Virus record (IMG/VR): IMGVR_UViG_3300045051_001524
Location: 1-43,156 of that record
Strand: one strand, 5' to 3'
Length of the DNA: 43,156 nucleotides
Source of the DNA: a virus
In this document: positions 16,556 to 43,156 of the stretch, one piece after another
Position numbering within the stretch: position 1 is the stretch's first letter
Layout: each line of letters opens with the position of its first letter
Position numbers and translations under genes: made by a program
Notes under the pieces: model-generated
The model's database searches: none
What the model was told of the DNA's origin: nothing
The model's input: only the letters and a program-made list of their open reading frames with translations

Positions 16556-18871
16556 TTAAGCCACCACCGCCTTGGTCGTGCCCTTGTGCGCGTCGACCAT
16601 CAGATCGCCGCCGTACACGTGGCGGATCTTGTAGGTCAGCTTGTCGTTGGTGAACATGCTGCCCACGCTCGGGTTGTCCTGGACGAACAGCTCCGGCTCT
16701 TCGCGGCCGTCGAGGAAGTCGATACCCAGCACCGGTATCTTGTCTTGCGGCGCGACAGTCACCCAGTCGGTCGCATCGGTCCAGTAATCCACCGTGATGA
16801 TTTCCGGATTGAGCGTCTGCTGGAACGTCTTGTCGTTGTTGGTGCCGCGCACGAACAAGTCGAAGGCCGTATCCTGCAAATCGAACGGCACCAGAATCTG
16901 GCCGGGCGAAGTCGCCAACCGTTTTCCGCTGCCGGAACGCGTCATCTTCTGCATCGCCAGGCGGTGAGCCTTGAACGCTGCGGCATCCAGTGCGCCGGTG
17001 AACAGGTTGCCGTGGTCGGCGTGATACAGCGCTACTCCATCGGCAGAGACCGGGTTGGTGCGATAGAAGTCGAACACGAACTCGTACAGCGTGTTGCCGG
17101 CCGCCAGCGCCAGCTCGCGCGGGATGTTGGCGATCGCGCGCACGTCGTCGTTCTTGATCGCTTCCAGCGTCACATCCTCGGTGCCGCCGCGCTTCTTTAC
17201 CGCCCAGGTCGCCTCGTCATCGCCCGGCGTCGCCATTGCGGGATACGGATCGCCCTGACCGACGATGGACAGATTGCCGTAGCCGCCGATACGGCCGACG
17301 TGCTGCGTGCGGAAATCGCTGACGCGACCCACCTGTGCGACCTTGCGCCACGATTGCAGATCCGTCATGCCGGTATAGATCGCCAGCATGCGGCGGGTGA
17401 CCGCATCGCCCAGCACCTGCGAGAAGCTGGTTGAATCCACCGCCTCGCGGAAGTTGGCGCCGGCCGCCTCGCGCAAGCGGGAGCGATCGCAGTCGCTCAG
17501 TCGACCGGTCACCAGTCGGTCGCCGGTCACCTGGATGTAACACTCCTTGAACGAGCTCGCCGCGCGGTGATCCTTGTGCGCCGGGTCGAAGAACGCATCC
17601 AGCATGTCGGCGATCTTGACCGAGCGGTCTTCCACTTGCGCACCGCTGCCAAACGGCAGCGCCACATGCCCCGACTCGGTGAAGCGCGCCAGATAGCCGC
17701 GCTCCGCCTCGATGGCCGCAGTCACATCCGCCTCGACGAAGCGCTCGCGGCCATTGAAGTCGGCCAGCAGCTTATCCTTCGCCGGCTGCGGCAGGTTGCA
17801 GGTCGCGATGGTGGTGCGCATGTTCGCGCGCGCCTCGACCATGCGGATACGCTCATCTACATCATCGCGCCCAGCGATTCGCTCCGTGCTGCCGGCAGGC
17901 TTGCCTGCCACCGCCTCGCGGTACGCCGTCTCGATCTCGGCGTCTGTAGCATCCGCCCCCAGTTTTGCGTGCAGCGCCGGACTGGCCTGCTTGATTTTTT
18001 CCAACAGCATTTGCCGCATGTGATCCTCCTCGTTTGAATTGACTGCCTCGACCATCCGGATCAGCCGTCCGCCCGCACCGGGCTCGACGATCAGATCCAC
18101 CGAACTTACCTTGGTGATGCGGGTTGCCACCTTGACCTTGCGGCCCTCGCGCATCTGCGTTTTCGACACGCCGTCCGCATCGATGGAGAAGCCGAACAGG
18201 TCGCTCATTCCGCGCGCGGCCGCCTCACGGATCTTCACGGCCACCGAACCATCCGGCTCGATCAGCGACAGCACCGCCTGGACCTCTCCGGTATCGGTCG
18301 TAGCGCCGGCCACGAACTTCGCCTCGGCCAGGCGCCCGATCAGGTTGTCCACCGCCTTGCCGTCGCCCTTGATGTGCTCCTCGTCCGACTTGATGAACAC
18401 GCGAGCGCCGTTGAACATCGGCGTCGACTCGCGCAGCAGCGTGTCCGAATAGAACACACCATTCAGCGAAGTTCCGGCCTGGATCACACGGATCAGCCAC
18501 TTGCCGCTCTCCGGTCCGCCGACCGCCTCGACAAATACGGCGGCAGCACCCCCGGCATCTCCGTCTCCGGCTGCGGGCGCGGCGGCGGCTCCTTTGCCGA
18601 CCGCCGCGAACGTCTCGACCACCTCGATGGGTGCGCCGAACGTCACCTGGTTCTGCTCGTTGATGGTGTAGGGATAGGAGAAGTAACGGCCGTCGCGGCA
18701 GACCACGACGCGATCTGGGAACATCGCCTCGATGTCGAGATAGCAGTTAGGCTCATTCGGGCAGATGACCGGCCTCAGCGCATTGCGCACCAGCTTGGCG
18801 ACATCAGAAAACTCCGAAGCCACGGCCTCACGCAGGTTGATACCGGCTACAGGGATGACGGCGCGGCTCAT
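16556..18871 (-). CDS. Prohead protease-scaffold-major capsid fusion protein
   Basis: 771 residues. An N-terminal extra domain (about 1-85) contains PVICPNEPNCYLDIEAMFPD. A protease-like part (about 120-270) has NGARVFIKSDEEHIKGD (His166), MSDLFGFSIDADG (Ser229) and SVDLIVEPGAGG (Asp259), consistent with HK97-type U35 prohead proteases. A helical scaffold-like delta segment (about 280-420) follows, then a capsid domain (about 430-771) related to Mu-like gpT/HK97-fold subunits (NIPRELALAAGNTLYEFVFDFY, GVALYHADHGNLFTG). Self-cleavage would release the capsid subunit. It follows a one-base stop/start overlap with the 83-residue gene. Confidence 0.8.
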   Translation of the reverse strand: MSRAVIPVAGINLREAVASEFSDVAKLVRNALRPVICPNEPNCYLDIEAMFPDRVVVCRDGRYFSYPYTINEQNQVTFGAPIEVVETFAAVGKGAAAAPAAGDGDAGGAAAVFVEAVGGPESGKWLIRVIQAGTSLNGVFYSDTLLRESTPMFNGARVFIKSDEEHIKGDGKAVDNLIGRLAEAKFVAGATTDTGEVQAVLSLIEPDGSVAVKIREAAARGMSDLFGFSIDADGVSKTQMREGRKVKVATRITKVSSVDLIVEPGAGGRLIRMVEAVNSNEEDHMRQMLLEKIKQASPALHAKLGADATDAEIETAYREAVAGKPAGSTERIAGRDDVDERIRMVEARANMRTTIATCNLPQPAKDKLLADFNGRERFVEADVTAAIEAERGYLARFTESGHVALPFGSGAQVEDRSVKIADMLDAFFDPAHKDHRAASSFKECYIQVTGDRLVTGRLSDCDRSRLREAAGANFREAVDSTSFSQVLGDAVTRRMLAIYTGMTDLQSWRKVAQVGRVSDFRTQHVGRIGGYGNLSIVGQGDPYPAMATPGDDEATWAVKKRGGTEDVTLEAIKNDDVRAIANIPRELALAAGNTLYEFVFDFYRTNPVSADGVALYHADHGNLFTGALDAAAFKAHRLAMQKMTRSGSGKRLATSPGQILVPFDLQDTAFDLFVRGTNNDKTFQQTLNPEIITVDYWTDATDWVTVAPQDKIPVLGIDFLDGREEPELFVQDNPSVGSMFTNDKLTYKIRHVYGGDLMVDAHKGTTKAVVA

Positions 18872-27038: not shown

Positions 27039-28814
27039 TCAGCCCACCAATCGCAGCACCGGCGCATCGAACTTTCCCTCCAACCGATCCACAACCTCCT
27101 GCAGCTGCTCTTCCATCACGCCGCCCGGGTACCAGTCGGCCAGCTTGGCGCGGTCTTCTGCCGCCACCGGCCTGCCCAGCATGGTGCGCAGGCGCATCGC
27201 GGCCTGTGTGTGGGTGAGCGGCTTGATCTCGACGTGGATGGGGCTGGGGACGTTCAGGCGTTCGCCTGGTCGATCCATGAACGCGGGCGCGGCGACGTCC
27301 TTCAGATGCGAGTGAGCATCCAGCCCACCAAATGGGACGGCGTTCTTGTTCTTGGCCTTTTCGATTTCTTCGATTGATAGCCCTGCATAGGCGGCCTGAT
27401 CGGCGGCCTTGCCCGCCGTCTCGATGACGGTATCGGGGCGGGATTTGTATTCCTCTCCGTATACCGCACCGTCGGCACGGAAGCCGCCAGCATCAGCAGC
27501 AACAGGAGAAACGATGTGTGTGGTTTCCTCATTCTTGTAGTCCGTGACGGTGACCAGCACTTGGTTGTCGCCGTACACCAGGGGAGAGACCTTGACCATA
27601 TCCCCGACATATACGCCGGGGATATGGCCTACGTCGTAGTGCAGGCGCAGCTTGATTGCCGGATGCTTGAAGCTGATGACCAGTTCGCCATCCACCTTGC
27701 GCTCGATGGGATCGGCGGAGAGCAGCAGGCGGCACAGCTCGACCGGCGGCAGGATGCGCAGCTGCTCGCGGCGGATCATCTGCCACAGTGCGTAGCGGGC
27801 CTGCGGCTCCGCCATGTACTTGCGGTGCAGGCGCGCGTCGTAGTTGGGGATGGCGTCCGCGTTGTAGGCGTTGTACCAAGCCTCGGCGGCTGCGTTGAGC
27901 TGGTCGACGTTCTCCACTGGCTCGTACATCAGGCGGCTCTCAAACAGGCATTCAACGCGGTTGTTGCCGTTCTCGACGCTGCCCTTGGCGCGCGGATTCT
28001 TGGCCTTGTGTTCGATGGCCTCGACGCCCAGGGCACGCAGCGCGTTCTTGATCGCGCCTGCGGTGTTGGCGCTGCCCTTGTCCCAATAGAGCATCTTGGG
28101 CACGCCGTGCGCCACTCGGCCTTCGAGCTTGTTCCAGCAATAGAGCAGGAAGTCGAACAGGTTGGCCTGCGTCTCGCCCTTGGCCTGGTAGTAGCGGACG
28201 ATGGTGGTGTTGCTGAAGTGATCGGTGAGGACGTAGCGCCACACCTTGAGTTTCAGCTTGGCGACGTTCTCCAGCTTGTTCTTGTAGAACTCGTCTTCCT
28301 GGATGATGCGTTGCTTGCCGTCCGGCATGTAGTAGATCAGGCACAGCGACGGGTCTACCTGATGCACATGATTGGGGTACAGCGAGCGGCAGGCTTGCGC
28401 AGCGCGGTCCTGCCGCTGCGCGGCGAGATTCATCTGGTTGACCTTGAGCAGCGCATTCACGCGGCTGTTGGAGACGACGATCTCGCGGCCATTCTGCGAC
28501 AGCAGCGAGACAGCGGTCGGCGTATGCATGGTGGGCTTGCCGTTCTTGCGCTGGCCGATGCGCAGCGTGGCGCAGACGTCGGTGAGCACGCCCATATCCT
28601 GCGAGGTGGTTCCGCAATCGGAGCGCGTCTTGCGCCCGCTTGACCAACCTACCTTGCCCAGGGCGCGATACACGCGGCTGTAGCTCCAGTCGTACAGTTC
28701 GCCGAAGGCGTGGATCATGGCCGTGCATTCACCGTGCGCGGCAGCGTCGAGCCGCTGGGCGAGATCACGCACGGCGTCCTGGACTGTAAGGGCGGAAGGC
28801 TCGTTTATCGCCAT
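27039..28814 (-). CDS. Phage DDE transposase (MuA/B3 A-like)
   Basis: 591 residues from MAINEPSALT (AAGGGG before ATG). N-terminal helix-turn-helix domains for end binding (about 1-130). An rve catalytic core has Asp154 (VHQVDPSLCLI), Asp245 (MLYWDKGSAN) and Glu281 (GSVENGNN), 35 residues between the last two, more like IstA/Tn552-type spacing than MuA. C-terminal beta-barrel (VYVGDMVKVSPLVYG) and a tail likely to contact the ATPase. It catalyses integration and replicative transposition, presumably acting on the GATAAAT-type sites at both termini. Confidence 0.92.
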   Translation of the reverse strand: MAINEPSALTVQDAVRDLAQRLDAAAHGECTAMIHAFGELYDWSYSRVYRALGKVGWSSGRKTRSDCGTTSQDMGVLTDVCATLRIGQRKNGKPTMHTPTAVSLLSQNGREIVVSNSRVNALLKVNQMNLAAQRQDRAAQACRSLYPNHVHQVDPSLCLIYYMPDGKQRIIQEDEFYKNKLENVAKLKLKVWRYVLTDHFSNTTIVRYYQAKGETQANLFDFLLYCWNKLEGRVAHGVPKMLYWDKGSANTAGAIKNALRALGVEAIEHKAKNPRAKGSVENGNNRVECLFESRLMYEPVENVDQLNAAAEAWYNAYNADAIPNYDARLHRKYMAEPQARYALWQMIRREQLRILPPVELCRLLLSADPIERKVDGELVISFKHPAIKLRLHYDVGHIPGVYVGDMVKVSPLVYGDNQVLVTVTDYKNEETTHIVSPVAADAGGFRADGAVYGEEYKSRPDTVIETAGKAADQAAYAGLSIEEIEKAKNKNAVPFGGLDAHSHLKDVAAPAFMDRPGERLNVPSPIHVEIKPLTHTQAAMRLRTMLGRPVAAEDRAKLADWYPGGVMEEQLQEVVDRLEGKFDAPVLRLVG

Positions 28815-28824
28815 GATCGGCCCC

Positions 28825-29799
28825 TTACTTTGCAGCCTTTGCGGGCTTCGGCATGAAGGCTTCCACATCCAGCATGGGGCGGGCCTTTTCCTTGTAGCCG
28901 ATGAAGACTTCCTCGCAGGCGTGCATCAGCTCGGCAACCCGGCCCACGACCTGATTGAGCGCGTCGTAGTACACCATCGCCATCGCCTCGATCGCAGCCT
29001 CGCGGTCTTCATCGCCGAACTCTTCGGTCAGGATCGCATCGCGCATCGTGTCCAGCTTGTCCAGCGCCTCAAGTCCGGAAGCGGCGTGGCGCGTGGTTTC
29101 GATGGCGATTTCGGTTGCGCGCGGGTGCCAGTCACCGGCGCGGTTCTGCAGCTTGTGCAGCTGCTTGTCCAGGCTGTTGAGCTTCTCGTCTTTTTTCCTG
29201 ATGACGGCATGCAGCGCATCAGTCTCCGCTTTGGATTCCTCCCGCGCCTCGCGCAGCGCGGTGCGCAGCTCCTTCACCGACATGGTGGCGATCTCGTCCA
29301 GGTGCAGGTCGCCGGTCTGGCCGGTCAACTCCAGTTCCTCGATCTGCTCGTCATCCAGCACCAGCATTTCGAACAGCTTGGTTTGGTTGCCGATGGCTCT
29401 GGTCAAAGTTGCGTTTGACGGCAACTTTGAAAACTTGGCAGCGGATTGCATAAAGCGGCTTGCCACGTATTTGTCGATACCCAGCACATCCAGCCTTGCC
29501 ACAAAGTTTCCATGCCCGCAGGCCGCCTTCAGCACTGCCAGCCCGCGCCCGACCTCGAGGCAGGCCTCGACGCTGCGGCGCATGTTGGCGCTGATGTCGC
29601 GCTGAATCAGGTCCGGATCGGTGCAGTCGGCGGGCAACTGGTAGCCGACCTGCGCGGCCACGGCGCGGACGTTCGCCTCCAGCTGAGACTCCAGCGCGGG
29701 CAACTGGCTGATGGCCTCTGCTGCCCGCGTCAGGCCTGGCGTTTGTTCACCGGATAGTTCGTGCGATTCGACTACAGCTTTTGATTTTTGGCGACCCAT
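28825..29799 (-). CDS. DUF3102-like coiled-coil early protein
   Basis: 324 residues; GGGAGTAGCAAC precedes the ATG. A central region with CLEVGRGLAVLKAACGHGNF and GIDKYVASRFMQSAAKF resembles the DUF3102/KilA-type helical domain seen in phage early genes. A long coiled coil (about 175-225: ELRTALREAREESKAETDAL) follows, then a helical C-terminus. Ten bp before the transposase gene; possible regulator or transpososome accessory, not proven. Confidence 0.6.
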   Translation of the reverse strand: MGRQKSKAVVESHELSGEQTPGLTRAAEAISQLPALESQLEANVRAVAAQVGYQLPADCTDPDLIQRDISANMRRSVEACLEVGRGLAVLKAACGHGNFVARLDVLGIDKYVASRFMQSAAKFSKLPSNATLTRAIGNQTKLFEMLVLDDEQIEELELTGQTGDLHLDEIATMSVKELRTALREAREESKAETDALHAVIRKKDEKLNSLDKQLHKLQNRAGDWHPRATEIAIETTRHAASGLEALDKLDTMRDAILTEEFGDEDREAAIEAMAMVYYDALNQVVGRVAELMHACEEVFIGYKEKARPMLDVEAFMPKPAKAAK

Positions 29800-31493: not shown

Positions 31494-32225
31494 ATGATTG
31501 ACGATGCGAAATCAGTTACCGATGGTAACGGTTACAGTGCAGAGGAGCTGGCCCAGCTCAAACTGCCCGGATACCCTGTTTCAAGGAAAGGGTGGTACGA
31601 CCGCGTACGCCGTGACGGATGGGAGATTCGCGAGGAGCCTGGAAAGGGACCGGGCGGGATTCGACAGGTATTCGTGCCGCCGCCAAATGTCAGGAAGCTG
31701 ATCGAAGATATTGAGCGCGCGAATATGTATTTCTTCGGAGATAGCAAGCCGCAGAAGCCGCATGCTGTACAAGAGCCGTCCGCGCCTGCCTATATGCCAG
31801 CTCCGGAAGGTTTCATCCTAGTGCCGCGTTACGACGTGACCGGCAGCATGGGAAACGGCCACGTGATCCACAGCGAGCAGATCGTCGATCATCTCGCCTT
31901 CCGTGCAGAATGGGTGCGCACTGAGTTGGGTACCAGCCCGAGCAGCCTGGTGCTGATCAGCGCAGTCGGCGATTCGATGGAGCCGACGCTACGCGCGCAC
32001 GATCTGCTGCTGATTGATCGCAGCGTGTTGAGCGTGAAGCAGGACGCGATCTATGCTTTTGCCGTCGACGGCGAACTGCGCGTGAAGCGCATCCAGCGCC
32101 TGTTCGACGGCAGCCTGATCATCAAGAGCGACAACCAGGAATACGCTACGGAGACTCTAACTCCGCAGCAAGCCGAGACGATCAACATCATCGGGCGCGT
32201 GGTGTGGTCAGGGCGGAGGATGTAG
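31494..32225 (+). CDS. Phage repressor: Mu-type DNA-binding domain fused to S24 peptidase
   Basis: 243 residues. N-terminal Mu-transposase/repressor-type domain (about 13-65: GYSAEELAQLKLPGYPVSRK; RKGWYDRVRRDGWEIREE), a linker, and a LexA/CI-like S24 domain (about 110-243) with catalytic Ser161 (VGDSMEPTL) and Lys198 (ELRVKRIQR). RecA-stimulated self-cleavage would link induction to DNA damage; no Ala-Gly or Cys-Gly cleavage pair is evident at the hinge (GSMGNGHVI), so the cut site is uncertain. Only a weak AAAGA ribosome site precedes the ATG. O3 lies within its 5' coding end, suggesting autoregulation. Confidence 0.88.
   Translation: MIDDAKSVTDGNGYSAEELAQLKLPGYPVSRKGWYDRVRRDGWEIREEPGKGPGGIRQVFVPPPNVRKLIEDIERANMYFFGDSKPQKPHAVQEPSAPAYMPAPEGFILVPRYDVTGSMGNGHVIHSEQIVDHLAFRAEWVRTELGTSPSSLVLISAVGDSMEPTLRAHDLLLIDRSVLSVKQDAIYAFAVDGELRVKRIQRLFDGSLIIKSDNQEYATETLTPQQAETINIIGRVVWSGRRM
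31515..31535. promoter_or_regulatory. Operator O3 inside the repressor 5' coding end
   Basis: GTTACCGATGGTAACGGTTAC combines GTTACC-GAT-GGTAAC and GTAACGGTTAC overlapping palindromes, the latter identical to that in O1. Placed 21-41 bases into the repressor gene, it could block repressor transcription. Confidence 0.65.
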
Positions 32226-32230
32226 CTTCC

Positions 32231-32653
32231 GTGGAGATCGAGATTTCAGACTACGAAGGCCGCACATACAGCTCAATTAGAATCCCATCTCTTCGTTTTG
32301 TCGGCCTGTTGAATCACTCCGAGGACAAACGATTCGGCATTGCTGCCGGGGTTATCGTTCAGACTCAAGAGCGGGTTGTTCTGTATTTATGCGACGGCGC
32401 GATTACCTGGAGGGCTGATGATTGCGCCCCAATGGACATTCGCTTTTCAGTCAATGGGTGGGGAGGATTTGTAACATCGACCAGCATTTGCGCGTTCAAT
32501 CCAGATGGCATTGTGTTCGATGTTGGCTGTCCTTTTGGCATTGGTAAGGTTTGCACTGTTCGGCATGATGACAACCAGGTGATTTTTCTTAGTGATCGGT
32601 ATGAAATTGTTTATGATTTGACCGGACACTTACTCCGAAAAGAGAGGTTATGA
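32231..32653 (+). CDS. Probable cargo (moron) protein 1, unknown
   Basis: 140 residues if it starts at GTG 32231 (GGAGGATGTAGCTTCC before it); an in-frame GTG at 32204 inside the repressor is an alternative. Mainly beta strands with Gly turns (VGLLNHSEDKRFGIAAGVIV; VFDVGCPFGIGKVCTVR). The DNA looks AT-richer than surrounding late genes. It follows the repressor immediately, so it may be expressed in the lysogen. No family recognised. Confidence 0.55.
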   Translation: MEIEISDYEGRTYSSIRIPSLRFVGLLNHSEDKRFGIAAGVIVQTQERVVLYLCDGAITWRADDCAPMDIRFSVNGWGGFVTSTSICAFNPDGIVFDVGCPFGIGKVCTVRHDDNQVIFLSDRYEIVYDLTGHLLRKERL

Positions 32654-32654
32654 G

Positions 32655-33041
32655 ATGAACAAGATTATTTTCATTGCAGCGTTGCTACTGGCAACAGTGA
32701 ATGCAACCGCTTCCGATCTATTCCCTCAAGAGAAGACCGCCATCATGGCCGCGGTCAAACATGACTTGAAAGACCCGGACACGGCAAAGTTCAAATGGCC
32801 GAAGCTGGCTGACAAGATCAACCCGAAGCACTTCGTCGATTCGTATTGCGGATTGGTGAACGCCAAAAACAGCTATGGCGCGTACACTGGATTCGAGCCG
32901 TTCGAGGCGCAGGTTGCGCGCACAGATGATGGTAAATTCGAGGTGATATCTGTCACCGTGAGCAATGAGAATTTAACAGCATCGGATCTTGCCAAGATGT
33001 GCAGTTCCGCCGGATACGCCGATCTCGTGTCGACCAAATAG
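32655..33041 (+). CDS. Probable cargo (moron) protein 2, exported, unknown
   Basis: 128 residues. Clear signal peptide: MNKIIFIAALLLATVNATAS then DLFPQ. The mature part (DLKDPDTAKFKWPKLADK; SYCGLVNAKNSYGAYTGFEP) resembles small periplasmic proteins of Proteobacteria that share the DPD(S/T)AKF and CGxVNAKNSYG pattern. Two conserved cysteines may form a disulphide. One base after the previous gene stop, ending in a terminator. Probably a lysogenic conversion gene. Confidence 0.65.
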   Translation: MNKIIFIAALLLATVNATASDLFPQEKTAIMAAVKHDLKDPDTAKFKWPKLADKINPKHFVDSYCGLVNAKNSYGAYTGFEPFEAQVARTDDGKFEVISVTVSNENLTASDLAKMCSSAGYADLVSTK

Positions 33042-33052
33042 CCTTCCAACTA

Positions 33053-33076
33053 AGCCCCGCCCCATGCGGGGCTTTG
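33053..33076 (+). terminator. Rho-independent terminator of repressor-moron operon
   Basis: AGCCCCGC (33053-33060), loop CCCAT, GCGGGGCT (33066-33073), then TTG. An 8-bp GC stem with a short U-run, directly before the late promoter-like element at 33085. Confidence 0.75.
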
Positions 33077-33084
33077 TCATTCCG

Positions 33085-33130
33085 CCGGAACCCCTTCCGC
33101 CTTAATCCACCCCGCGCGCGCGCGTAATCT
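33085..33130 (+). promoter_or_regulatory. Candidate activator-dependent late promoter for lysis/terminase operon
   Basis: CCGGAACCCCTTCCG (33085-33099, centre 33092.5), CTTAA-type motif at 33101-33105, 19-bp GC spacer ending GCGCGCGCG, then TAATCT (33125-33130). The expected start near 33136 leaves about 24 nt to the amidase ATG. Same geometry as the elements at 12045-12090 and 19173-19218. Confidence 0.65.
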
Positions 33131-33159
33131 CCCGTCACCAACTGATAGGGGGCGCGGGC

Positions 33160-33630
33160 ATGCGCAAAATCGAAACCATCATCATCCACTGTTCGGATTC
33201 GCCGAACGGCAGGACGCTATTCACCGGCAAGCTCGGCGACAAGAACTTCACCACACCGGTGCAGGAGATCGACCGCTGGCACCGCGAACGCGACTTCAAA
33301 CGGCTGCCGCTGTGGCGCGCAAAGCAGAATCCAGAACTCTCCAGCATCGGCTACCACTTCGTGATCTATACACGCGGCGCTGTTGCCTCCGGACGTCATG
33401 TCGATGAGATCGGCGCGCATTGCCAGGGATACAACGCCACCAGCATCGGAATCTGCCTGATTGGGAGGGATGCCTTCACCAGCGCGCAATGGCTGGCGCT
33501 GGCGAAGCTGGTCGAGTCGCTGAAGAAGTCCAATCCCACCGCGCGCGTGGTCGCTCACCACGATCTCAATGCAGCGAAGACCTGCCCGAATTTCAACGTC
33601 GCGGCCTGGCTGGAAGGAGAGTCGGTATGA
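33160..33630 (+). CDS. N-acetylmuramoyl-L-alanine amidase endolysin (amidase_2)
   Basis: 156 residues, single domain. Zinc ligands His10 (IIIHCSDSP), His134 (VVAHHDL) and Cys142 (KTCPNF), with catalytic Tyr65 and Lys140, reproduce the T7 lysozyme pattern including the H-6-K-2-C spacing. It cleaves peptidoglycan for lysis. No signal peptide, so a holin is needed. GGGGGCGCGGGC precedes the ATG. First gene of the right-arm late operon. Confidence 0.92.
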   Translation: MRKIETIIIHCSDSPNGRTLFTGKLGDKNFTTPVQEIDRWHRERDFKRLPLWRAKQNPELSSIGYHFVIYTRGAVASGRHVDEIGAHCQGYNATSIGICLIGRDAFTSAQWLALAKLVESLKKSNPTARVVAHHDLNAAKTCPNFNVAAWLEGESV

Positions 33631-34130
33631 AGTGGTTCTTTGTTTCAGTATTGGTCCTGATCGCCGCTGTGCTTGCATTCTTTGGAAATCGTGCCTCCGC
33701 CGATCCGCAGGGGCGCGGCGGAAAGTTCGCGACCATTTTTTGGTGCGCTTCAAGTGTGGCGCTAGGTCTAGCGGTGGCGCTGGCGATAGTTTTTTTTAAA
33801 ACTGTTATTGCCTGGCTGATGTTTGCGTCATTCATCTGCATTTGCATCTGCGTGTTGTATAGGCGGTCTCCAGGCGGAATACGCATTTCCGATGTCGCGC
33901 TGAAAATTGCAGTAGCGCTTCTTTCCTGCGCGATTTTGTTGGCGCTGGATATGTGGATCATCGCTTCTATAGTCGGGATTTTCATCGTCGGGATTATTTT
34001 GGGGATATCGGGGCTGATTGATGACTGCGATCGTCAGAACCGTTCGCAAAAGCACGGCATCGCAAAATTGTTTGGCGGGTTGCTGTGTGTGATGGGCGCC
34101 GTGTACCTGTGTTATCAGGCCCTTATTTAG
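33627..34130 (+). CDS. Polytopic membrane protein in lysis cassette, unknown
   Basis: 167 residues with about 5-6 hydrophobic segments (FFVSVLVLIAAVLAFFG; SVALGLAVALAIVFF; WLMFASFICICICVLY; LLSCAILLALDMWIIASIVG; GGLLCVMGAVYLCYQALI). ATGA overlap with the amidase. Larger and with more membrane spans than usual holins; it might be a holin partner, antiholin or superinfection-exclusion protein. Confidence 0.6.
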   Translation: MKWFFVSVLVLIAAVLAFFGNRASADPQGRGGKFATIFWCASSVALGLAVALAIVFFKTVIAWLMFASFICICICVLYRRSPGGIRISDVALKIAVALLSCAILLALDMWIIASIVGIFIVGIILGISGLIDDCDRQNRSQKHGIAKLFGGLLCVMGAVYLCYQALI

Positions 34131-34139
34131 GAGCATCGA

Positions 34140-34703
34140 ATGGATCCAATCAGCATTGCATTAGGACTTGCCCAATTCGCACCGTCGCTGCTGCGCTTCT
34201 TCGGTGCAGGTGAAAAGTCCACAACCATCGCCGAAAAGGTGATCGGTATCGCGCAGACCGTCACCGGCGCACCGACCGGAGAGGCCGCGCTGGTCACCCT
34301 GCAGCAGAACGCGCAGGTGGCGCATGAATTCAGCCTCGCAGCGTTGCGCGCCGATACCGAGCTGGAGCAAGCCTACCTCTCCGACCGCAAGGATGCCCGG
34401 GCCCGCGACGTGGCGCTGGCACAGGCCGGGCGTATCAACAAGCGCGCCGACCTGATGGTGCTGATGGATGTGATCGGCCTCGCGCTTGGTTTCATCGCCA
34501 TGCTGGCGCTCGGTTACGTCAAGGCGAGGTATCCATCCGCCATCAGCGAGGGCGTGTTCGGCGCGTTGCTGGCCCAGCTCTCGACCATCACCAGCTATTT
34601 CGGCCTGTGTCTGCGCGACGCACACCAGTTCGAGTTCGGCAGCTCGCGCGGCAGCCGCGACAAAGACGAGCTACTGGCCAAGGCTCCACCGATCAAGGGG
34701 TAG
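34140..34703 (+). CDS. Holin-like protein (3TM GTA-holin type)
   Basis: 187 residues; AGGAGCATCGA before ATG. N-terminal hydrophobic IALGLAQFAPSLLRFFGAGE, a central soluble helical region (SLAALRADTELEQAYLSDRKDAR) and two C-terminal membrane helices (MVLMDVIGLALGFIAMLALG; FGALLAQLSTITSYFGLCL). This is the layout of the GTA_holin_3TM family. It would form the pore that releases the amidase. Confidence 0.75.
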   Translation: MDPISIALGLAQFAPSLLRFFGAGEKSTTIAEKVIGIAQTVTGAPTGEAALVTLQQNAQVAHEFSLAALRADTELEQAYLSDRKDARARDVALAQAGRINKRADLMVLMDVIGLALGFIAMLALGYVKARYPSAISEGVFGALLAQLSTITSYFGLCLRDAHQFEFGSSRGSRDKDELLAKAPPIKG

Positions 34704-34705
34704 CC

Positions 34706-34915
34706 GTGACGGACCAGGTAGACAAGGCACAAGAGTTCGAGGCCATGCATCGCGATATCGCGCAGCACAACAGGCGCGCAACGCTTCCCTACACAGGGAG
34801 TTGCCATAACTGCGGAGACATCACAGGCGGCGGACGCAGATTCTGCGATGCGGATTGCCGCGACGACTACGAGAAGCGCGAGAAACAGAAAGGCCGATAT
34901 GCAGCTTCAAATTGA
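34706..34915 (+). CDS. Small C4 zinc-finger protein
   Basis: 69 residues from GTG (AAGGGGTAGCC before it). DKAQEFEAMHRDIAQHNRR then CHNC-(about 12)-CDADC: four cysteines in two pairs. Similar proteins (TraR/DksA-like or DUF2116) occur in this position of Mu/B3-like late operons. RNA polymerase binding is possible but unproven. Confidence 0.6.
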   Translation: MTDQVDKAQEFEAMHRDIAQHNRRATLPYTGSCHNCGDITGGGRRFCDADCRDDYEKREKQKGRYAASN

Positions 34916-35333
34916 GTTCTGGCAGCTATTGGGCAGTCTGGTCGCAATCATCGTGGCGTTTGCATCGGTTACATGGGCCTTTGGAAACGTGCTGGCAAAG
35001 CAGTTCAAGTCATGGCTGGTAGAGCGATTTGAAGCGCAGGATGAAATGCGCCTGCAGCGCGAGAAGGCATTGGACGAGCGATTTAAGTCGCAGGATGAAT
35101 TGCGCCAGCAACGCGAGAAGGCGCTGGACGAGCGATTTGCTGGATTGCAAAAGCTGATACGCCAAGAGGGGGACGGCTGGCGTGAAGTTGAGCGGCAGTT
35201 GTACGAACTCAAAGCCAGCTTGCCGCTGAATTACGTGCTGCGCGAGGACGACATCCGAAAAGAAGTCGTCCTCAATCACAAACTGGATGCATTGGCACAA
35301 AAGATTGATGCACTCACTGCCGGGAGGAAATGA
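34899..35333 (+). CDS. Membrane-anchored coiled-coil protein (DUF2730-like)
   Basis: 144 residues from MQLQIEFWQLLGSL. One N-terminal membrane helix (LLGSLVAIIVAFASVTWAF) and a cytoplasmic or periplasmic coiled coil. The coil has an internal duplication: REKALDERF recurs twice about 45 bp apart. Resembles DUF2730 proteins of Mu-like phages encoded between lysis genes and small terminase; a spanin-like role is also possible. Confidence 0.6.
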   Translation: MQLQIEFWQLLGSLVAIIVAFASVTWAFGNVLAKQFKSWLVERFEAQDEMRLQREKALDERFKSQDELRQQREKALDERFAGLQKLIRQEGDGWREVERQLYELKASLPLNYVLREDDIRKEVVLNHKLDALAQKIDALTAGRK

Positions 35334-35641
35334 TGGCAATTGATTTGGAAAAACAGAAACGCGAGCAGCTGCGCTGGCTGATCCTGGAAACGCTCAATGC
35401 GGCACGTCCTGTCGGAGCGAATGAAGGGCTGATCCTGAATACGGTCAGCGCGGTGCAATGCGATGTCACCGCGCTGGAGTTGCGGCGCGAGCTGGATTAT
35501 CTGGAGTCGCGCGAACTGGTCGAGATCACAGGCAAAAAGACCCCCATGTGGCACGCGGAGCTGACGCGCATCGGTGTGGACGTGGTCGAGTACACCGTCG
35601 ATTGCGATGCAGGTATCGCTCGCCCGAACAAGTACTGGTAA
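35333..35641 (+). CDS. Winged-helix protein preceding the terminase (Mu gp26-like position)
   Basis: 102 residues using the second ATG (35333), better spaced from GGAGG than the first (35330). LRWLILETLNAARPVGANEG and LELRRELDYLESRELVEITG form a winged-helix pattern. The same small gene precedes DUF3486/gp27 in Mu-like phages. Possibly helps packaging-site recognition. Confidence 0.65.
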   Translation: MAIDLEKQKREQLRWLILETLNAARPVGANEGLILNTVSAVQCDVTALELRRELDYLESRELVEITGKKTPMWHAELTRIGVDVVEYTVDCDAGIARPNKYW

Positions 35642-35643
35642 TC

Positions 35644-36171
35644 ATGGCTCCGCGCTCAAAAATAGCAAAACTCCCGCCTGGAATTAAAGCCTGGCTGCAT
35701 GCTGCGCTGGCAGATAACGCCTGCTCTGATTACCAGTGGCTATCCGACGAGCTGAAGGCCAAGGGATTCGATATCAGCCGCTCGGCTGTTCATCGCTACG
35801 GTCAGGAGTTCGAAGACAAACTGATGGCGATCAAGATCGCCACCGAGCAGGCCAAGGCGATCACCGAGGCAGCGCCGGATGATGCCGGCGCGATGAACAG
35901 CGCGCTGATCAGCCTGGTGCAACAGAAGGCATTCAAGGTGCTGGTCGATATGCAGGAAGGCGCATCAATCAAGGATATCGGGCTGATGGTCGCGCGCCTT
36001 TCCAACGCCACGGTGAAGCAAAAGCAGTTTGCCGCCGAGGTGCACGAGAAGTTAGAGCGGGCAAAGCTGGCTGCAGCCAACGAGGCCGAGGCGATCGCCA
36101 TCAAGTCGGGTATGAGTGACGATGACTGGGCGTTGATTCGCGCCAAGTTCCTCGGCATTGAGGTGGCTTGA
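35644..36171 (+). CDS. Small terminase subunit (DUF3486, Mu gp27-like)
   Basis: 175 residues from MAPRSKIAKLPPGIKAWL. N-terminal helix-turn-helix (YQWLSDELKAKGFDISRSAVHR) followed by coiled coil, matching DUF3486 proteins that act as small terminase in Mu-like phages. Stop overlaps the large terminase ATG by one base. It would recognise the packaging site in this headful-packaging lineage. Confidence 0.85.
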   Translation: MAPRSKIAKLPPGIKAWLHAALADNACSDYQWLSDELKAKGFDISRSAVHRYGQEFEDKLMAIKIATEQAKAITEAAPDDAGAMNSALISLVQQKAFKVLVDMQEGASIKDIGLMVARLSNATVKQKQFAAEVHEKLERAKLAAANEAEAIAIKSGMSDDDWALIRAKFLGIEVA

Positions 36172-37814
36172 TGGCGGATATCAGCGTCGAGTCGATCAGT
36201 ATCCCGGATGGCGAAAAGCGCGATCTGCTCGACTTGGTCAAAGAGATGCAACAGGACCGCGGCAAACTACCGCCGTCGCTTGCCGTCCCGAAGATACTGC
36301 TACCGTACCAGGCTAAATGGCATCTGGACGAGTCGACTGTACGAATCGCGGTAAAGAGCCGCCGTATCGGGTTTTCATGGGGAAGCATTGCAGCCGAGGG
36401 CGCGCTCGAAGCGGCCAAACAGAACGGCGGAATGTCCCAGTACTACATGGGCTACAACCTCGGCATGGCTGCCGAAAATATCGGGGATGCAATCAAGTTC
36501 GCCGAGATATACGGTTTTGCCGCCAGCCAGATTTCAGTGGCCCGCGAACGCGAGACCATGCAGGTCGAACAGGGCGGCGTGGTTGGAGAACGCAAGCAGG
36601 ACATCACTCGCTTCAAAATCACGTTCAAATCCGGCCATGTTTATGAGGCGCTGAGCTCGGCGCCGTGGAACTGGCGCGGACGGCAAGGCCATGCGCGCAT
36701 CGACGAAGCGGCATTCCACCGTAACCTGGGCGAGGTGATCAAGGGCGCACTGGCCTTCAGGCTGTGGGGCGGCCGCATCGATATCATCAGCACGCACAAC
36801 GGTGACGACAACGATTTCAATCTGCTGGTGCGCGATATCGAGGCGGGAAAGCTGAACTGGAGTTTGCACAAGATCGACTTCGATCAGGCGCTGGCACAAG
36901 GGCTTTACCAGCGCATCTGCCTGGTCAAAGGTAAGCCGTGGTCGCCGGAGGCAGAGCGCGAATTCCGCGACCAGGCATTCGCCGACTACCCGGATCAGGC
37001 CGACGCGAATGAGGAGCTGCTCTGCCTTCCGAAAAAAGGCAGCGGCGTCTACATGCCACGCGTGCTGATCGAGAATTGCCAGGACAACCGGATCCCGACG
37101 TTGAGGCTGCAAAAGCCGGTCGAGTACGTGACCAACCCAGACCGTATCGATGAAACCGATGCCTGGATCAGGGACAACCTGAAACCGATCATCGACTCGA
37201 TGCCGAAGACGCAGCGCAGCGTCTATGGGCAGGACTTCGGGCGCAGCGGCGACCTCTCGGTAACGTGGGTAATGCAGGAGGATTCGCCGAAACACTGGCG
37301 GCAGGCATTCGCCTTTGAAGGTCGCAATCTGCCGTTCGACGTGCAGGCGCGGATCCGCGATTACATCCTGGACAACATTCCACATTTCTACCACGCCTCA
37401 TTCGACGCGCGCGGCAACGGCCATTCTCACGCCGAGGCTGCACTACAGAAACATGGGAAATTCAGGGTTAGCTGCATCATGGCCACGCAGCAGTGGTATG
37501 CCGAATGGTTCCCTAAATACAAGTCTATGTACGAGGGGAAGTACCTCACCGTGGTGGGCGGAGAGGATGTCATCACCGACCATCGACGAGTGATCCTGTC
37601 CAAAGGCAATCCATCAATGGATGAGGGGCGCGACAAAGGTTCGGATGGCGGGTATCGGCACGGCGATTCGGCGGTGGCCGGAGTGATGTGCAGCCATTCG
37701 GCTAACCGTGAGGGGCAGCCCGCCGCAGGCGCATCCGTCGAAACCAACAACGACACCTACACGCCCGCTGCAATGAACAATCGGCGGCGCGTTTCGATGT
37801 ACCGCAAGCATTAA
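36171..37814 (+). CDS. Large terminase subunit (Mu gp28-like)
   Basis: 547 residues. N-terminal ATPase: Walker-A-like KSRRIGFSWG at 62-71 (an atypical form seen in Mu gp28), Walker B HARIDEAAF with Asp177-Glu178. C-terminal RNase-H-like nuclease with Asp354 (YGQDFGRSGD), Asp411 (SFDARGNG) and a third Asp near 500 (GGYRHGDSAVA). It packages and cuts DNA into heads. Confidence 0.92.
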   Translation: MADISVESISIPDGEKRDLLDLVKEMQQDRGKLPPSLAVPKILLPYQAKWHLDESTVRIAVKSRRIGFSWGSIAAEGALEAAKQNGGMSQYYMGYNLGMAAENIGDAIKFAEIYGFAASQISVARERETMQVEQGGVVGERKQDITRFKITFKSGHVYEALSSAPWNWRGRQGHARIDEAAFHRNLGEVIKGALAFRLWGGRIDIISTHNGDDNDFNLLVRDIEAGKLNWSLHKIDFDQALAQGLYQRICLVKGKPWSPEAEREFRDQAFADYPDQADANEELLCLPKKGSGVYMPRVLIENCQDNRIPTLRLQKPVEYVTNPDRIDETDAWIRDNLKPIIDSMPKTQRSVYGQDFGRSGDLSVTWVMQEDSPKHWRQAFAFEGRNLPFDVQARIRDYILDNIPHFYHASFDARGNGHSHAEAALQKHGKFRVSCIMATQQWYAEWFPKYKSMYEGKYLTVVGGEDVITDHRRVILSKGNPSMDEGRDKGSDGGYRHGDSAVAGVMCSHSANREGQPAAGASVETNNDTYTPAAMNNRRRVSMYRKH

Positions 37815-37825
37815 CAGGAGCAGCG

Positions 37826-39295
37826 ATGAAAGCACCAAAATGGTTAAAAAGCCTGTTTCGTGAGGCAGTGCAAGAAGAAGTGCGCGAAGTTGTGCAGGAA
37901 GAAAAAAAGCTGCGCGAGGCTGCGCCGACCATCGGCGTCACTATCGACGCCGACGAAGACAACTGGCGGCCGCTGACTGGCGACACCAAGCGCGACTTGT
38001 CGCCGGTATCGCATCAGCGTATGCGCGATATGGCGCTGTATCTGTGGGAATCGAACCTACTGGCCAACCGGCTGATCGAGCTGCCGCTGGCCTATATTCT
38101 GGCCGAGGGCGTGTCGTTGCGCTGCAAGAACGAGGACAACCAGAAGACGCTCACGCGATTCTGGAAGGATCCGATCAACCAGATGGATATCAAGCTCGTC
38201 AAGAAAGTGCGCGAGCTGGCTATCTACGGCGAGCAGTGCTATCCGACCTTTATCAACGAACACTCCGGCCATGTGCGCCTGGGCTATCTCGACCCAGCGC
38301 TGATCGAGACGGTGGTGATCGATCCGGACAACCCGGAGCAGCCGATCGGCATCGTGACCACGAAAGACCGCAAGGGCGTGGCGCGGCGCTATCGGGTGAT
38401 CGTCAACGGGCCTGATGACGAGTTGTTTACCAAGCGCACGCAGGAAATCCGCGCTACGTTCGATGACGGCGAGGCGTTCTATTTCACCATCAACGACCTG
38501 TCCAACGGCCGCCGCGGCCGCTCAGACCTGCTGGCGCAGATCGACTGGCTGGACGGCTACGACCAGTTCCTGTTCGGCGAGCTTGACCGCAGCAGCTTCC
38601 TGCGCGCCTTCCTGTGGGATGTAACGCTTAAGGGCGCAACGCCAGAGGAAGTTAAAAAACGCGCGAGCGAAATCACCGCGCCAAACCCCGCTAGCGTGCG
38701 GGTGCACAACGAAGGTGAGGAGTGGAACGCGGTTTCACCCAATCTTGGAGCTGCAGATTCTGAGGGGTCAGCCCGCCTGTTCCGCAACCATGTGCTGGGC
38801 GGTAGCACCGTGCCTGAGCACTGGTTCGGCGGCGGCGGCAATGTGAACCGCGCCACCGCGGGAGAGATGGGAGACCCAACCTTCAAGATGTTCAGCATGC
38901 GTCAGAAGTTCCTGAAGTACGTGCTGGAGACCATCGGTTTCTATGTGCTGCGCCAGAACGAACTGGCAGCCAACCGTGGCGAGCCTGATGCGGAAGACAC
39001 GGATTTCGCGGTCGAAGCCGAATTCCCTGAGTTAACCTCGCGGGATACGGCCAAGTATGCCCAAGCGCTGCAGCAAGTGATCGCCGCCGCAGCCCTTGCC
39101 GTGACCAACAAGTTCATTTCCATCAAGACCGCGATCCGCCTCATCAACTCGATTTCCGAGCGCCTCGGCGTCGAGATCGACGCAGAGACAGAATTGAATT
39201 CCGCGCTGGATGAAGCCGGAAAAAAGTCTGAGAAGGATGCTTTCACCGCAGCAGGTGCGGCAGCAGGGGATACAGCCAGCGGCGAGGTGAAGTAA
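37826..39295 (+). CDS. Portal protein (Mu gp29/DUF935-type)
   Basis: 489 residues; AGGAGCAGCG before ATG. An acidic coiled start (REAVQEEVREVVQEEKKLRE), then SHQRMRDMALYLWESNLLANR and the portal core with GYLDPALIETVVIDPDNPEQ and a C-terminal clip/crown region. Ring-forming portal for DNA entry and connector attachment. Placed between terminase and MuF as in Mu and B3. Its capsid partners are encoded on the opposite arm. Confidence 0.88.
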   Translation: MKAPKWLKSLFREAVQEEVREVVQEEKKLREAAPTIGVTIDADEDNWRPLTGDTKRDLSPVSHQRMRDMALYLWESNLLANRLIELPLAYILAEGVSLRCKNEDNQKTLTRFWKDPINQMDIKLVKKVRELAIYGEQCYPTFINEHSGHVRLGYLDPALIETVVIDPDNPEQPIGIVTTKDRKGVARRYRVIVNGPDDELFTKRTQEIRATFDDGEAFYFTINDLSNGRRGRSDLLAQIDWLDGYDQFLFGELDRSSFLRAFLWDVTLKGATPEEVKKRASEITAPNPASVRVHNEGEEWNAVSPNLGAADSEGSARLFRNHVLGGSTVPEHWFGGGGNVNRATAGEMGDPTFKMFSMRQKFLKYVLETIGFYVLRQNELAANRGEPDAEDTDFAVEAEFPELTSRDTAKYAQALQQVIAAAALAVTNKFISIKTAIRLINSISERLGVEIDAETELNSALDEAGKKSEKDAFTAAGAAAGDTASGEVK

Positions 39296-39477
39296 TGACC
39301 GACTTAGAACACAACGCCTATGAAGCGGAAATAAAGAAATTACGGGACGCGCTGGAATTCTATGCTCTCGCCAAAAACTGGGAAAGCCCAAGTACCGGGT
39401 TCGCCTTGCAATATGATCCAGAGCCGAGCGCAATAAGTAAAGACCGCGGCGAGCGCGCACTGGATGCACTTAAGTGA
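39295..39477 (+). CDS. Small protein between portal and MuF
   Basis: 60 residues, helical N-terminus (YEAEIKKLRDALEFYALAKN), starting at a one-base overlap with the portal stop and overlapping the MuF GTG by 4 bp. Resembles the short leucine/heptad proteins common among phages. Unknown role; an insertion between two genes normally adjacent. Confidence 0.5.
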   Translation: MTDLEHNAYEAEIKKLRDALEFYALAKNWESPSTGFALQYDPEPSAISKDRGERALDALK

Positions 39478-40964
39478 CAGACGCAGAGCGCCAGAAAGCC
39501 TTTGAACTCGCCCGGGCGGCGGAGCTTAAGGCGCGCGCGGCGCTGCTGGCCACGACCCGCGACGATGTGATCAAGCTGCTCAACGAGGCGCTGGACGAGA
39601 TCAAGGTATTGCTGACCGACTTTCCCACCGAATACGAGAGTTATCGCTTTTCTCAGCTGCAGCTGCAAATCGAACAGACGCTGGAGATATTCAGCAAATC
39701 ATCGGCCGAGGTGCTGGCCAACGGCGCCACCCAGGCATGGACCGGCGGTCAGGCATTGGTGACCGCACCGCTTGAGGCTGGCGGTATCCGTATTGCCTCC
39801 GTGTTGCCTGCGCTGGACACCCGGATGCTGATGTCCATCAACCACTTCATGGTCGACCGCATGCAGGATGTCACCAAGGTCGCCGCAGACAAGATCAGGT
39901 CCCAGCTCGGTCTGGCGCTCGTCGGTGCGCAATCACCCGGCGAAGCGGTCGGCACCATCACCGCGATATTGGGAGAGGAGTCGCGCGAGCGCGCAATCAC
40001 CATCACACGCACGGGACTTGGCAGCGTCCATGCGGTTGCTGCGCAACAGCGAATGGAACAGGCCGCGAAGCGTGTTCCGGGCCTCGGAAAGCAATGGCGC
40101 CGCAGCGGCAAGATCCACAGCCGCGAGAACCACGATGCCATCGACGGCCAGGTGCAGCCGGTAAACAAGCCATTCGCGCTGGTGGCAAAGAAAGACGGTT
40201 TGGCGCTATTCATGATGCACCCGCACGATCCAGCGGCTCCGGCCGGCGAAGTGATCAACTGCGGATGCATATCGATACCGCACATGACTAGCTGGAAGAT
40301 GCTCAATCCAGGCAAGGTTCCATTCTCGGCGCAAGAGCTCCAGAACAATCCGCTGAAGCGTGAAAAGGCTGTGGCAATGGGGCAGTCGGTCAATTTCAGG
40401 CAGCCTACGACTGGCGGAGGATCTGTCTATGACCCGAATGCAGTAAAGGTTGCTGCTGACGTATCCTCAGCAGCACGGCGAGCGGCGGTTGAAATCGAAA
40501 ACGAGATCCGCAAAGACTTGCTGGAAACGGGGGTTTTTATCGGCAAGAATGGGGTTGCTCTACTAAGGCGAACCGGCCTCGCGGATTCTGTCGGTTTTAC
40601 TGTGAAAGAGCTTTTCCGTATGTCCGGAGCGACTTTCACGCACAATCACCCTGGCGGCGGCTCGCTGTCTTACCAAGGGATGGACAGCGATCTTGGGCGT
40701 GCTTTCGTCTGGGGACTTGGTGAGGTTCGCGCTGTTTCCGGACAGTTCAGGTATATCGCTTATCCTCTAAAAGGTGCGTGGCCAGATGTCGCGCAGCTTG
40801 AGTTGTTATACCCTGATGCAGAGAAACATGCTCACGCGGTCGTTGCGGATATGGTCAAGTCCGACCAATTGGATTACTCTTACGCACGCCTTGAGGTATT
40901 GCACCAAGTGGTTCTGTTCCTGTCAAAGCGGCTTAGGTTCGGTTATATAAGAGAGGCATCGTGA
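39474..40964 (+). CDS. MuF head protein with extra C-terminal HxHP domain
   Basis: 496 residues from GTG. A helical N-part (about 1-165) and a MuF core (about 165-270) with ITRTGLGSVHAVAAQQRMEQ, RENHDAIDGQ and the closing NCGC. MuF proteins sit inside the head. A C-terminal extension (about 320-496) carries FTHNHPGGGSLSYQGMDSD (His390, His392, Pro393, Ser397/399, Asp404/406), close to JAMM/RadC-type HxHP...S..D metal motifs, then EVRAVSGQFRYIA. MuF proteins are known carriers of polymorphic toxin domains, so this extension may be an effector. The DNA of this part looks less GC-rich than the core. Confidence 0.8.
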   Translation: MTDAERQKAFELARAAELKARAALLATTRDDVIKLLNEALDEIKVLLTDFPTEYESYRFSQLQLQIEQTLEIFSKSSAEVLANGATQAWTGGQALVTAPLEAGGIRIASVLPALDTRMLMSINHFMVDRMQDVTKVAADKIRSQLGLALVGAQSPGEAVGTITAILGEESRERAITITRTGLGSVHAVAAQQRMEQAAKRVPGLGKQWRRSGKIHSRENHDAIDGQVQPVNKPFALVAKKDGLALFMMHPHDPAAPAGEVINCGCISIPHMTSWKMLNPGKVPFSAQELQNNPLKREKAVAMGQSVNFRQPTTGGGSVYDPNAVKVAADVSSAARRAAVEIENEIRKDLLETGVFIGKNGVALLRRTGLADSVGFTVKELFRMSGATFTHNHPGGGSLSYQGMDSDLGRAFVWGLGEVRAVSGQFRYIAYPLKGAWPDVAQLELLYPDAEKHAHAVVADMVKSDQLDYSYARLEVLHQVVLFLSKRLRFGYIREAS

Positions 40965-41149
40965 AACGACAATTGCCACCAGGCTTCGATCTAAAGAAAG
41001 ACGGCGATACTGTGCTTCAATTTAATGACGCCCCTTCCAATAGGGCTGCTGATGATTTCCAGCACAAGCTGGATGCTGAGATCGCTGCGGCCGGTGGCAT
41101 AGATGCATGGCGTGCAATCCAGAGCAAGGATCAGAAACAGGCCGCTTGA
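40961..41149 (+). CDS. Small protein coupled to MuF C-terminal domain
   Basis: 62 residues from GTG, overlapping the MuF stop by 4 bp. Acidic, mixed: LPPGFDLKKDGDTVLQFNDA and AEIAAAGGIDAWRAIQ. Last gene before the right terminus; it ends in a terminator. Its tight coupling to the MuF extension suggests they were acquired together; an immunity or chaperone role is conjecture. Confidence 0.55.
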   Translation: MKRQLPPGFDLKKDGDTVLQFNDAPSNRAADDFQHKLDAEIAAAGGIDAWRAIQSKDQKQAA

Positions 41150-41304: not shown

Positions 41305-41338
41305 GTTACTTTCTTTTGGCGAAGCAAAAGAAAGTAAC
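41305..41338. terminator. Long stem-loop of the interrupted host repeat
   Basis: GTTACTTTCTTTTG (41305-41318) pairs perfectly with CAAAAGAAAGTAAC (41325-41338) around GCGAAG. The equivalent stem in the intact copy is at 2360-2389. Lying between convergent host genes, it could act as a two-way transcript end. A short inverted copy of the 2127-2155 repeat follows at about 41367-41400. Confidence 0.55.
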
Positions 41339-42061: not shown

Positions 42062-43156
42062 CTACCGCAACTTCGGTGTTTCGCAAACCACATCCCCATT
42101 CTGCGCCCGATTCCGCAGTGCATGGTCGATCAGCACCAGCGCCACCATCGCCTCGGCGATGGGCGTGGCACGGATGCCGACGCAGGGGTCGTGGCGGCCT
42201 TCGGTGGAGACCTTCACTGGATTGCCGGCCTTGTCGATGGAGTCGCGTTCGATGCGGATGCTGGAGGTCGGTTTGATCGCGTAGTGCGCAACGATGTCCT
42301 GACCGGTGGAGATGCCGCCGAGGACGCCGCCGGCGTTGTTCGAGCGGAAGCCCTGCGGCGTGAGTTCGTCGCCGTGTTCGCTGCCGCGCTGGGTGACGCA
42401 GGCGAAGCCCGCGCCGATCTCGACGCCCTTCACCGCGTTGATGCCCATCAGCGCATGGGCGATGTCGGCGTCGAGGCGATCGAACACCGGCTCGCCCCAG
42501 CCCACGGGCACGTTGTTTGCGGCCACGGCGAGCTTCGCGCCGATAGAGTCGCCGGATTTGCGCAGCTCGTCCATGTAGTCTTCGAGCTGTCCGACGTAGC
42601 TCGCATCGGCGACGAAGAAACTGTTGCCCTCTTCGTTCAACTCGGCCCAGCTCTTGAACGGGATCTCGATCTCGCCGAGCTGTGCGAGGTAGCCGCGCAC
42701 CTCCACGCCGTAGCGTTCGTTCAGCCACTTCTTCGCGATCGCACCGGCCGCGACGCGCGCTGCGGTCTCGCGCGCAGACGAGCGGCCGCCGCCGCGGTAG
42801 TCGCGAATGCCATATTTCTGCCAGTAGGTGTAGTCGGCGTGGCCGGGGCGGAAGGTCTCGGCGATGCTGCCGTAGTCCTTGCTGCGCTGGTCTTCGTTGC
42901 GGATCAGCAGCGCGATGGGCGTGCCGGTGGTCTTGCCTTCGAACACGCCGGAGAGAATCTCCACGGTGTCGGATTCGCGGCGCTGCGTGACGTGACGCGA
43001 GGTGCCGGGCTTGCGGCGATCGAGGTCGCGCTGGATGCAGGCTGCACTCAGTTCCATTCCCGGCGGGCAGCCGTCGACGATGCAGCCGATGGCCGCGCCG
43101 TGCGATTCGCCGAAAGTAGTGACCGTGAACAGGGTGCCGAATGTGTTTCCAGACAT
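42062..43156 (-). CDS. aroC: Chorismate synthase
   Basis: 364 residues, complete with ATG at the window's last base. Signatures: [60 protein letters not shown], and the C-terminal [14 protein letters not shown]. It converts 5-enolpyruvylshikimate-3-phosphate to chorismate with reduced FMN, the last step of the shikimate pathway. Its promoter lies outside the window. It is followed by a membrane protein gene, 8 bp away. Confidence 0.97.

Follow-up and report, generated by a model that had tools for sequence, protein, structure and literature searches.

The last operon before host DNA in the virus record IMGVR_UViG_3300045051_001524 probably encodes, at odds that we would put at about 70%, a polymorphic MuF effector that belongs to an uncatalogued JAB clade and is carried by a temperate Mu-like phage together with a probable immunity gene. 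This reading rests on the predicted fold of the C-terminal domain, its conserved set of active-site residues, the swapping of MuF tails, and the presence of the domain on several delivery platforms. It also rests on the coupling of a small gene to the MuF gene and on an atypical base composition common to tail and small gene.

The window (the whole stretch of DNA analyzed, 43,156 nt) reads as a Mu-like transposable prophage with a lambda-type tail. Its landmarks are as follows.

4730-8263, minus strand: central tail fiber J
9611-12001, minus strand: tape measure
16556-18871, minus strand: head maturation protease/major head fusion
27039-28868, minus strand: transposase, Mu-type
35458-36171, plus strand: small terminase
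36168-37814, plus strand: large terminase (phrog_2 terminase, E 1e-27)
37826-39295, plus strand: gene in portal position (named for its place between terminase and MuF genes, not for a profile match)
39474-40964, plus strand: MuF gene (GTG start, 496 aa), after the gene in portal position
42062-43156, right end of the window: host aroC (read from the translation)

The Mu-type transposase and the host aroC gene at the window end indicate a temperate phage. The lysis-terminase-portal-MuF block (31494-41149) and the regulator-transposase-major head-tail block (3977-30950) have opposite orientations, and the MuF gene is thus set apart from the major head gene, which in the related locus L084 follows MuF. 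The MuF gene and its small companion lie at the very edge of the prophage. Prophage end repeats were sought in the window and not found, and nothing pointed to an inversion of the Mu type at the MuF tail. The gene pair was divided as follows.

39474-40375, plus strand: MuF core, the delivery part, residues 1-301 (PHROG_2468 head morphogenesis, E 1.1e-25)
40376-40427, plus strand: junction or linker, where similarity to L084, the closest core relative, ends
40428-40961, plus strand: JAB/RadC-like C-terminal domain, residues 319-496, about 178 residues (alignment A2 of 66 sequences, AlphaFold2, Foldseek/VIA, hhalign)
40524-40526, plus strand: E351, invariant, in register with RadC's conserved Glu
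40638-40652, plus strand: T389-H-N-H-P393, metal-ligand motif, 100% conserved in 56 representatives
40668-40691, plus strand: S399 to D406 (third ligand candidate), with a 4-residue insertion between them in the window copy only
40961-41149, plus strand: P0002, 62 aa, candidate cognate partner or immunity protein (GTG start, GTGA overlap with the MuF stop)

The Pfam family Phage_Mu_F matched the core at E 1.4e-4 and 23 bits, under its cut-off of 29.6. NCGC ends the core at residues 262-265, close to the 263-265 or so of the initial annotation. Relatives were collected with an alignment of three cores as query, and the best 80 of 216 viral relatives were kept. Most of these 80 end about 40 residues past NCGC, so that the basic MuF protein measures about 300 residues; only a minority have long tails, which are of several kinds. 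MuF proteins are thought to be present in a few copies in the head and to bind DNA (PMC12226406).

Among the core relatives listed, the closest, L084, is 76.5% identical to the window at the DNA level, over window positions 39475-40375 only (blastn). Its tail is DUF6883 (E 2e-21) instead of the JAB domain, and a search of the L084 record for the window's JAB domain found none. Since most core relatives have no tail at all, the same tail is clearly not a fixture of close MuF homologues. Tails about 38-45% identical to that of the window were mostly found on MuF cores without detectable similarity to the window core; L070 is the only carrier of such a tail whose MuF core detectably resembles it. 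Judged from these alignments, the MuF tail is an interchangeable module. The initial annotation had placed the tail and small gene at 40430-41149, which agrees with the start of the domain (about 40428-40440), but the boundary of the module lies earlier, at about 40375. Its interpretation of the gene in terms of MuF polymorphic toxins is supported, as the tail varies and other carriers share the domain.

The base composition of this region had been said to shift, and third codon positions bear this out. GC3 falls from 0.747 in the core to 0.528 in the JAB part and 0.484 in the 62-aa gene, compared with 0.63-0.85 in 25 other ORFs of the phage. Over all codon positions, the GC of the tail by itself stands out less, with 6% of phage windows equally low. 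The atypical GC3 common to both suggests that tail and small gene arrived together. Within the core family of the window, three further proteins (L113, L122, L125) have C-terminal tails with metallopeptidase-like motifs and close downstream small genes of their own; these tails matched no Pfam family at the usual cut-offs.

The C-terminal domain contains FTHNHPGGGSLSYQGMDSDL at residues 388-407, earlier compared with the JAMM/RadC HxHP motif. Its conservation rules out a chance resemblance. Alignment-based scans identified 79 further loci with the domain (61 viral, 15 genome and 3 phage records; 56 representatives at 70% identity). In the representatives, E351, T389, H390, N391, H392, P393 and D406 are conserved to 100%, R419 to 98%, S399 to 96%, and E417 and Y491 to 89% each. 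In all 66 rows of the alignment, E351, T389-H392 and D406 are invariant, and P393 and S399 are at least 90% conserved. The Ser-Asp spacing, rightly described as non-canonical, is S399-x6-D406 in the window compared with S-x2-D in nearly all relatives, and the extra four residues before D406 are present in the window copy alone within the aligned set.

Single-protein searches of viral contigs with the MuF protein (P0001), its tail or P0002 gave no match; relatives emerged only with alignments as queries. The tail likewise had no match in Pfam, PHROG or NCBIfam and no relative among PDB sequences. The domain was found in proteobacterial, Firmicutes, Bacteroidales, cyanophage and methanogen sequences, and it is rare in chromosomes: of 299 genomes sampled from the phylum of the seed genome, only the seed genome itself has it. 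Tail matches in Microbacterium and Streptomyces (H25-H31) were dropped as unconvincing (E 0.04-0.4). Methanogen contigs (L071-L074, from Methanolobus and Methanomethylovorans) also carry the domain, in L071 together with a Cys-rich partner of the kind described below, suggesting that the pair extends to (pro)viruses or chromosomes of archaea.

AlphaFold2 modeled the domain with a mean pLDDT of 95.5 and a pTM of 0.90, and confidence stayed high through the S399-D406 loop (block mean 91). The result is a confident JAB/MPN fold, not the plain structural extension that the initial annotation had allowed for. The best PDB matches in Foldseek were RadC chains, with 2QLC at probability 0.99 and E 6e-3, short of the strict level of 1e-3. 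In VIA-align, rows 1-26 were all JAB/JAMM proteins, including Pfu JAMM1 (best, Z 6.7), archaeal Rpn11, AMSH, BubCD, Cap3, the Csn5-containing signalosome and RadC, with purine-biosynthesis and deaminase-like proteins intermixed below; a Z under 8 may reflect a common arrangement only and is no proof by itself. An independent profile comparison with RadC (hhalign probability 91.9%, E 7e-7; unrelated control 0.1%) provides the stronger evidence. It placed E351, HNHP, the Ser and D406 on the E, HNHP, S and D of RadC. In the model (own numbering), E33 precedes strand 34-38, H72 and H74 lie at strand 69-73, and D88 lies at helix 88-95. The order of elements is identical in AfJAMM, where strands carry the two His and the Glu and a helix carries the Asp (PMC300881).

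The tail did not match the Pfam families RadC (PF04002) or DUF4329 (Tox-JAB-2), and hhalign gave DUF4329 only 3%, although the motif columns align. The literal JAMM motif E-xn-H[ST]H-x7-S-x2-D (PMC300881) is absent as well, since the family has HNH-x6-S-x2-D and the window HNH-x6-S-x6-D. In the same six genomes, RadC and A2 searches found different places. Structure and profile results together suggest a JAB-fold domain that is a sister to RadC, and not a member of RadC, of DUF4329 or of the literal JAMM-motif group. On the model, then, the C-terminal domain belongs to the JAB/MPN fold, with RadC nearest.

The search for the domain on other carriers, which the initial annotation had proposed, was productive. 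Among 65 full-length carriers, 28 matched Phage_Mu_F and 2 matched Phage_min_cap2. Further carriers include unrelated head proteins and other fusions, namely portal-MuF fusions (L060, L025), a 2H phosphoesterase fusion (L044) and a baseplate-hub fusion (L068), as well as one WXG100 member, which by its N-terminal sequence is L079. Stand-alone copies of about 225 aa occur in cyanophage virion gene clusters, mostly without a small coupled partner. Some cyanophage stand-alone genes (L002, 5500-6861; L031, L042, L050) are followed by an overlapping or abutting gene whose product starts with a common sequence (DEFDAPVSQVLTANI or similar), and these downstream genes are possibly a further partner family.

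The reported overlap of the 62-residue gene with the MuF stop by 4 bp was confirmed, and AGAGAGG, a few bases upstream of its GTG, is a likely ribosome-binding site. A strong RNA hairpin terminator after P0002 was not supported by folding (z -0.85). Even at E 10, P0002 matched nothing in phages, nor did it match any model in Pfam, PHROG or NCBIfam. Its only relative is the partner of the JAB-tailed protein of L016, a weak similarity over 27 aligned residues with E 1e-4 as a single comparison.

By one mechanical rule, a coupled ORF of 40-150 aa followed 30 of 38 long proteins with a JAB tail but only 4 of 52 short MuF genes from the core family of the window (Fisher p 2e-12; both sets were de-replicated, and the p value ignores phylogeny). 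In statistical terms, the coupled small gene is a companion specific to tailed MuF genes. These fractions are in line with a previous report of a small downstream gene behind 89.4% of MuF toxins and 25.5% of short MuF genes (Jamet 2017, PMC5576092). In 6 of the remaining tailed cases the next ORF exceeded 150 aa, and several of these ORFs encode related proteins of 157-168 aa in Firmicutes loci. The partners fall into a Cys-rich family, a Firmicutes family of 160 aa, acidic proteins of 46-56 aa, and small proteobacterial proteins, with which P0002 is loosely placed. In a broad alignment of the proteobacterial partners (A6), only a Gly and a Trp are kept besides the start, and an F[D/Y]-[D/G]-G-like motif is common to them by eye only.

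The Cys-rich proteins (about 70 aa, CxxC...CxAFPxxIP...H...PGDxGI) belong to no Pfam family and were found at no fewer than 273 viral loci (examples are L164-L243, L028:3486-3713 and L071:3468-3698). The search was blind to the upstream gene; it used the closer set A7, as alignment A5 was too diverse as a query. Among 80 viral loci (of at least 273), 32 were behind a JAB tail (by motif), 25 behind a tail with HExxH, and others behind ADP-ribosyltransferase or zeta-toxin tails, fractions that lean towards JAB because the query was built from JAB-tail partners. Phage_Mu_F was matched by 40 of 56 proteins upstream of a Cys-rich partner, and the partner was absent from all 52 of the 52 short MuF genes. 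The AlphaFold2 model of the family is of moderate confidence only (pLDDT 72.9). Its position alongside unrelated enzymes suggests a rather general accessory, packaging factor or broad guard rather than a specific inhibitor, and the family gives the impression of accompanying head-borne effectors in general. Since P0002 is outside this family, the pattern is only a warning for the window. In L004 a Cys-rich partner (5504-5686, minus strand) is found behind a JAB-tailed protein but is encoded convergently on the other strand, indicating that the pairing can be kept without a single operon.

In the effector reading, the MuF core would place the protein in the phage head near the portal, as expected from its family. 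The C-terminal domain, a putative metal-dependent JAB-fold hydrolase closest to RadC, would be packaged, injected with the DNA and act in the recipient cell, by analogy with Apk2 and Bxa. Its most likely target would be nucleic acid or nucleotides, as proposed for the RadC and Tox-JAB clades, and the 62-aa protein would most likely bind the domain and keep it harmless in the producing lysogen. Against this reading, the Ser-Asp spacing of the window, unique in the set, could mark a weakened or inactive copy. Cys-rich partners also follow other enzymes, so that a small downstream gene need not be a specific inhibitor, and P0002 itself has essentially one weak relative and no known fold.

An unlikely alternative is that the injected enzyme serves counter-defence or host takeover and is not a toxin, with the small gene encoding a chaperone or regulator. 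At an early stage of infection, the JAB domain would then strip a ubiquitin-like modifier or process a nucleotide or nucleic acid of a defence system. The delivery logic is identical, and JAB enzymes of bacterial ubiquitin-like systems (BubCD, 9EA4; Cap3, 9ILD) are among the structural neighbors. RadC domains in polyvalent phage proteins (PMC5512222), the mostly partnerless cyanophage copies, and Cys-rich partners behind many different enzymes, as expected of an accessory factor, point the same way. However, carriage on WXG100 and baseplate-hub proteins and the frequency of coupled small genes are typical of polymorphic toxins, and the nearest profile match is RadC, not a ubiquitin-processing JAMM protein.

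We give little credence to an assembly or maturation protease that cuts head or tail proteins in morphogenesis. Fusion to a head protein and the JAMM motif noted in the phage lambda tail protein K (PMC300881) fit such a role, but the domain is dispensable (absent from most relatives with the same core, and an unrelated domain in the closest), it also occurs on non-head carriers, and the window already has its own head maturation protease fusion. A decayed or inert tail, to which the insertion between S399 and D406, without equal among aligned members, and the operon's position at the prophage edge might point, is just as improbable given the open frame, the retention of all five active-site residues, the confidently modeled loop, and an intact coupled gene with a likely ribosome-binding site.

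The effector reading fits known systems in part. As in MuF polymorphic toxins (PMC5576092; Apk2; Bxa), a MuF core encoded next to the portal gene is joined to a variable C-terminal domain and followed by a small gene in a temperate phage; unlike in those described by Jamet 2017 or in Apk2 and Bxa, the C-terminal domain of the window has a JAB fold, and its toxicity is a prediction. Apk2 (PMC12226406) and Bxa (PMC11699363) are MuF proteins that are toxic in bacteria and neutralized by small proteins encoded by neighboring genes. Jamet 2017 (PMC5576092) also tied Ct_MAD to the C-terminal region of COG2369. The domain resembles RadC (PF04002, PDB 2QLC) in its JAB fold and in E...HNHP...S..D in register, but the window family has x6 and not x7 between His and Ser, a long C-terminal helical hairpin, a conserved Tyr near the C-terminus, and links mainly to phage head proteins. 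Like Tox-JAB-2/DUF4329 (PMC3482391), it is a C-terminal JAB-fold domain on toxin-type proteins with a partner gene and a predicted nuclease role; the Tox-JAB rows in Zhang et al. (PMC3482391) name T2SS, T6SS, T7SS and TcdB/TcaC carriers, and MuF is not named there. Toxin JAB domains, like RadC, were argued to be likelier nucleases than peptidases (Zhang et al., 2012, PMC3482391). Polyvalent proteins with RadC domains (Iyer et al., 2017, PMC5512222) also place a JAB domain in phage-packaged multidomain proteins, whereas here a distinct clade provides a single C-terminal domain, mainly on MuF and portal proteins.

"JAB" is absent from the texts of Jamet 2017 (PMC5576092) and of the papers on Apk2 (PMC12226406) and Bxa (PMC11699363). 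MuF toxins and JAB toxins are each known, and their combination in this clade is not named in the texts covered; earlier unlabelled sightings are possible. More tentatively, we suggest that this unnamed RadC-sister clade might be an antibacterial effector, widespread among temperate phages of bacteria and archaea and delivered by the capsid, common to T7SS-type and contractile-tail carriers and with small partner families of its own.

MuF toxins with tested activity have so far been alarmone synthetases (Apk2) and an ADP-ribosyltransferase (Bxa), and many proteobacterial MuF proteins have C-terminal extensions without an assigned domain (PMC5576092). The JAB domain accounts for one group of such extensions and offers a testable active site. 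It could supply a tractable enzyme of the JAB/RadC type whose substrate and inhibitor are both natural ones.

Beyond the gene pair, we note a perfect palindrome (GTTACTTTCTTTTG/CAAAAGAAAGTAAC) at window positions 41305-41338, as well as short repeats related to it in the left flank (about 2133-2390). Together they resemble host intergenic repeats and flank the prophage on both sides. A low-GC gene (about 0.44) lies between the prophage edge and aroC (41403 to about 42053, minus strand) and encodes an uncharacterized protein with a hydrophobic segment at its N-terminus.
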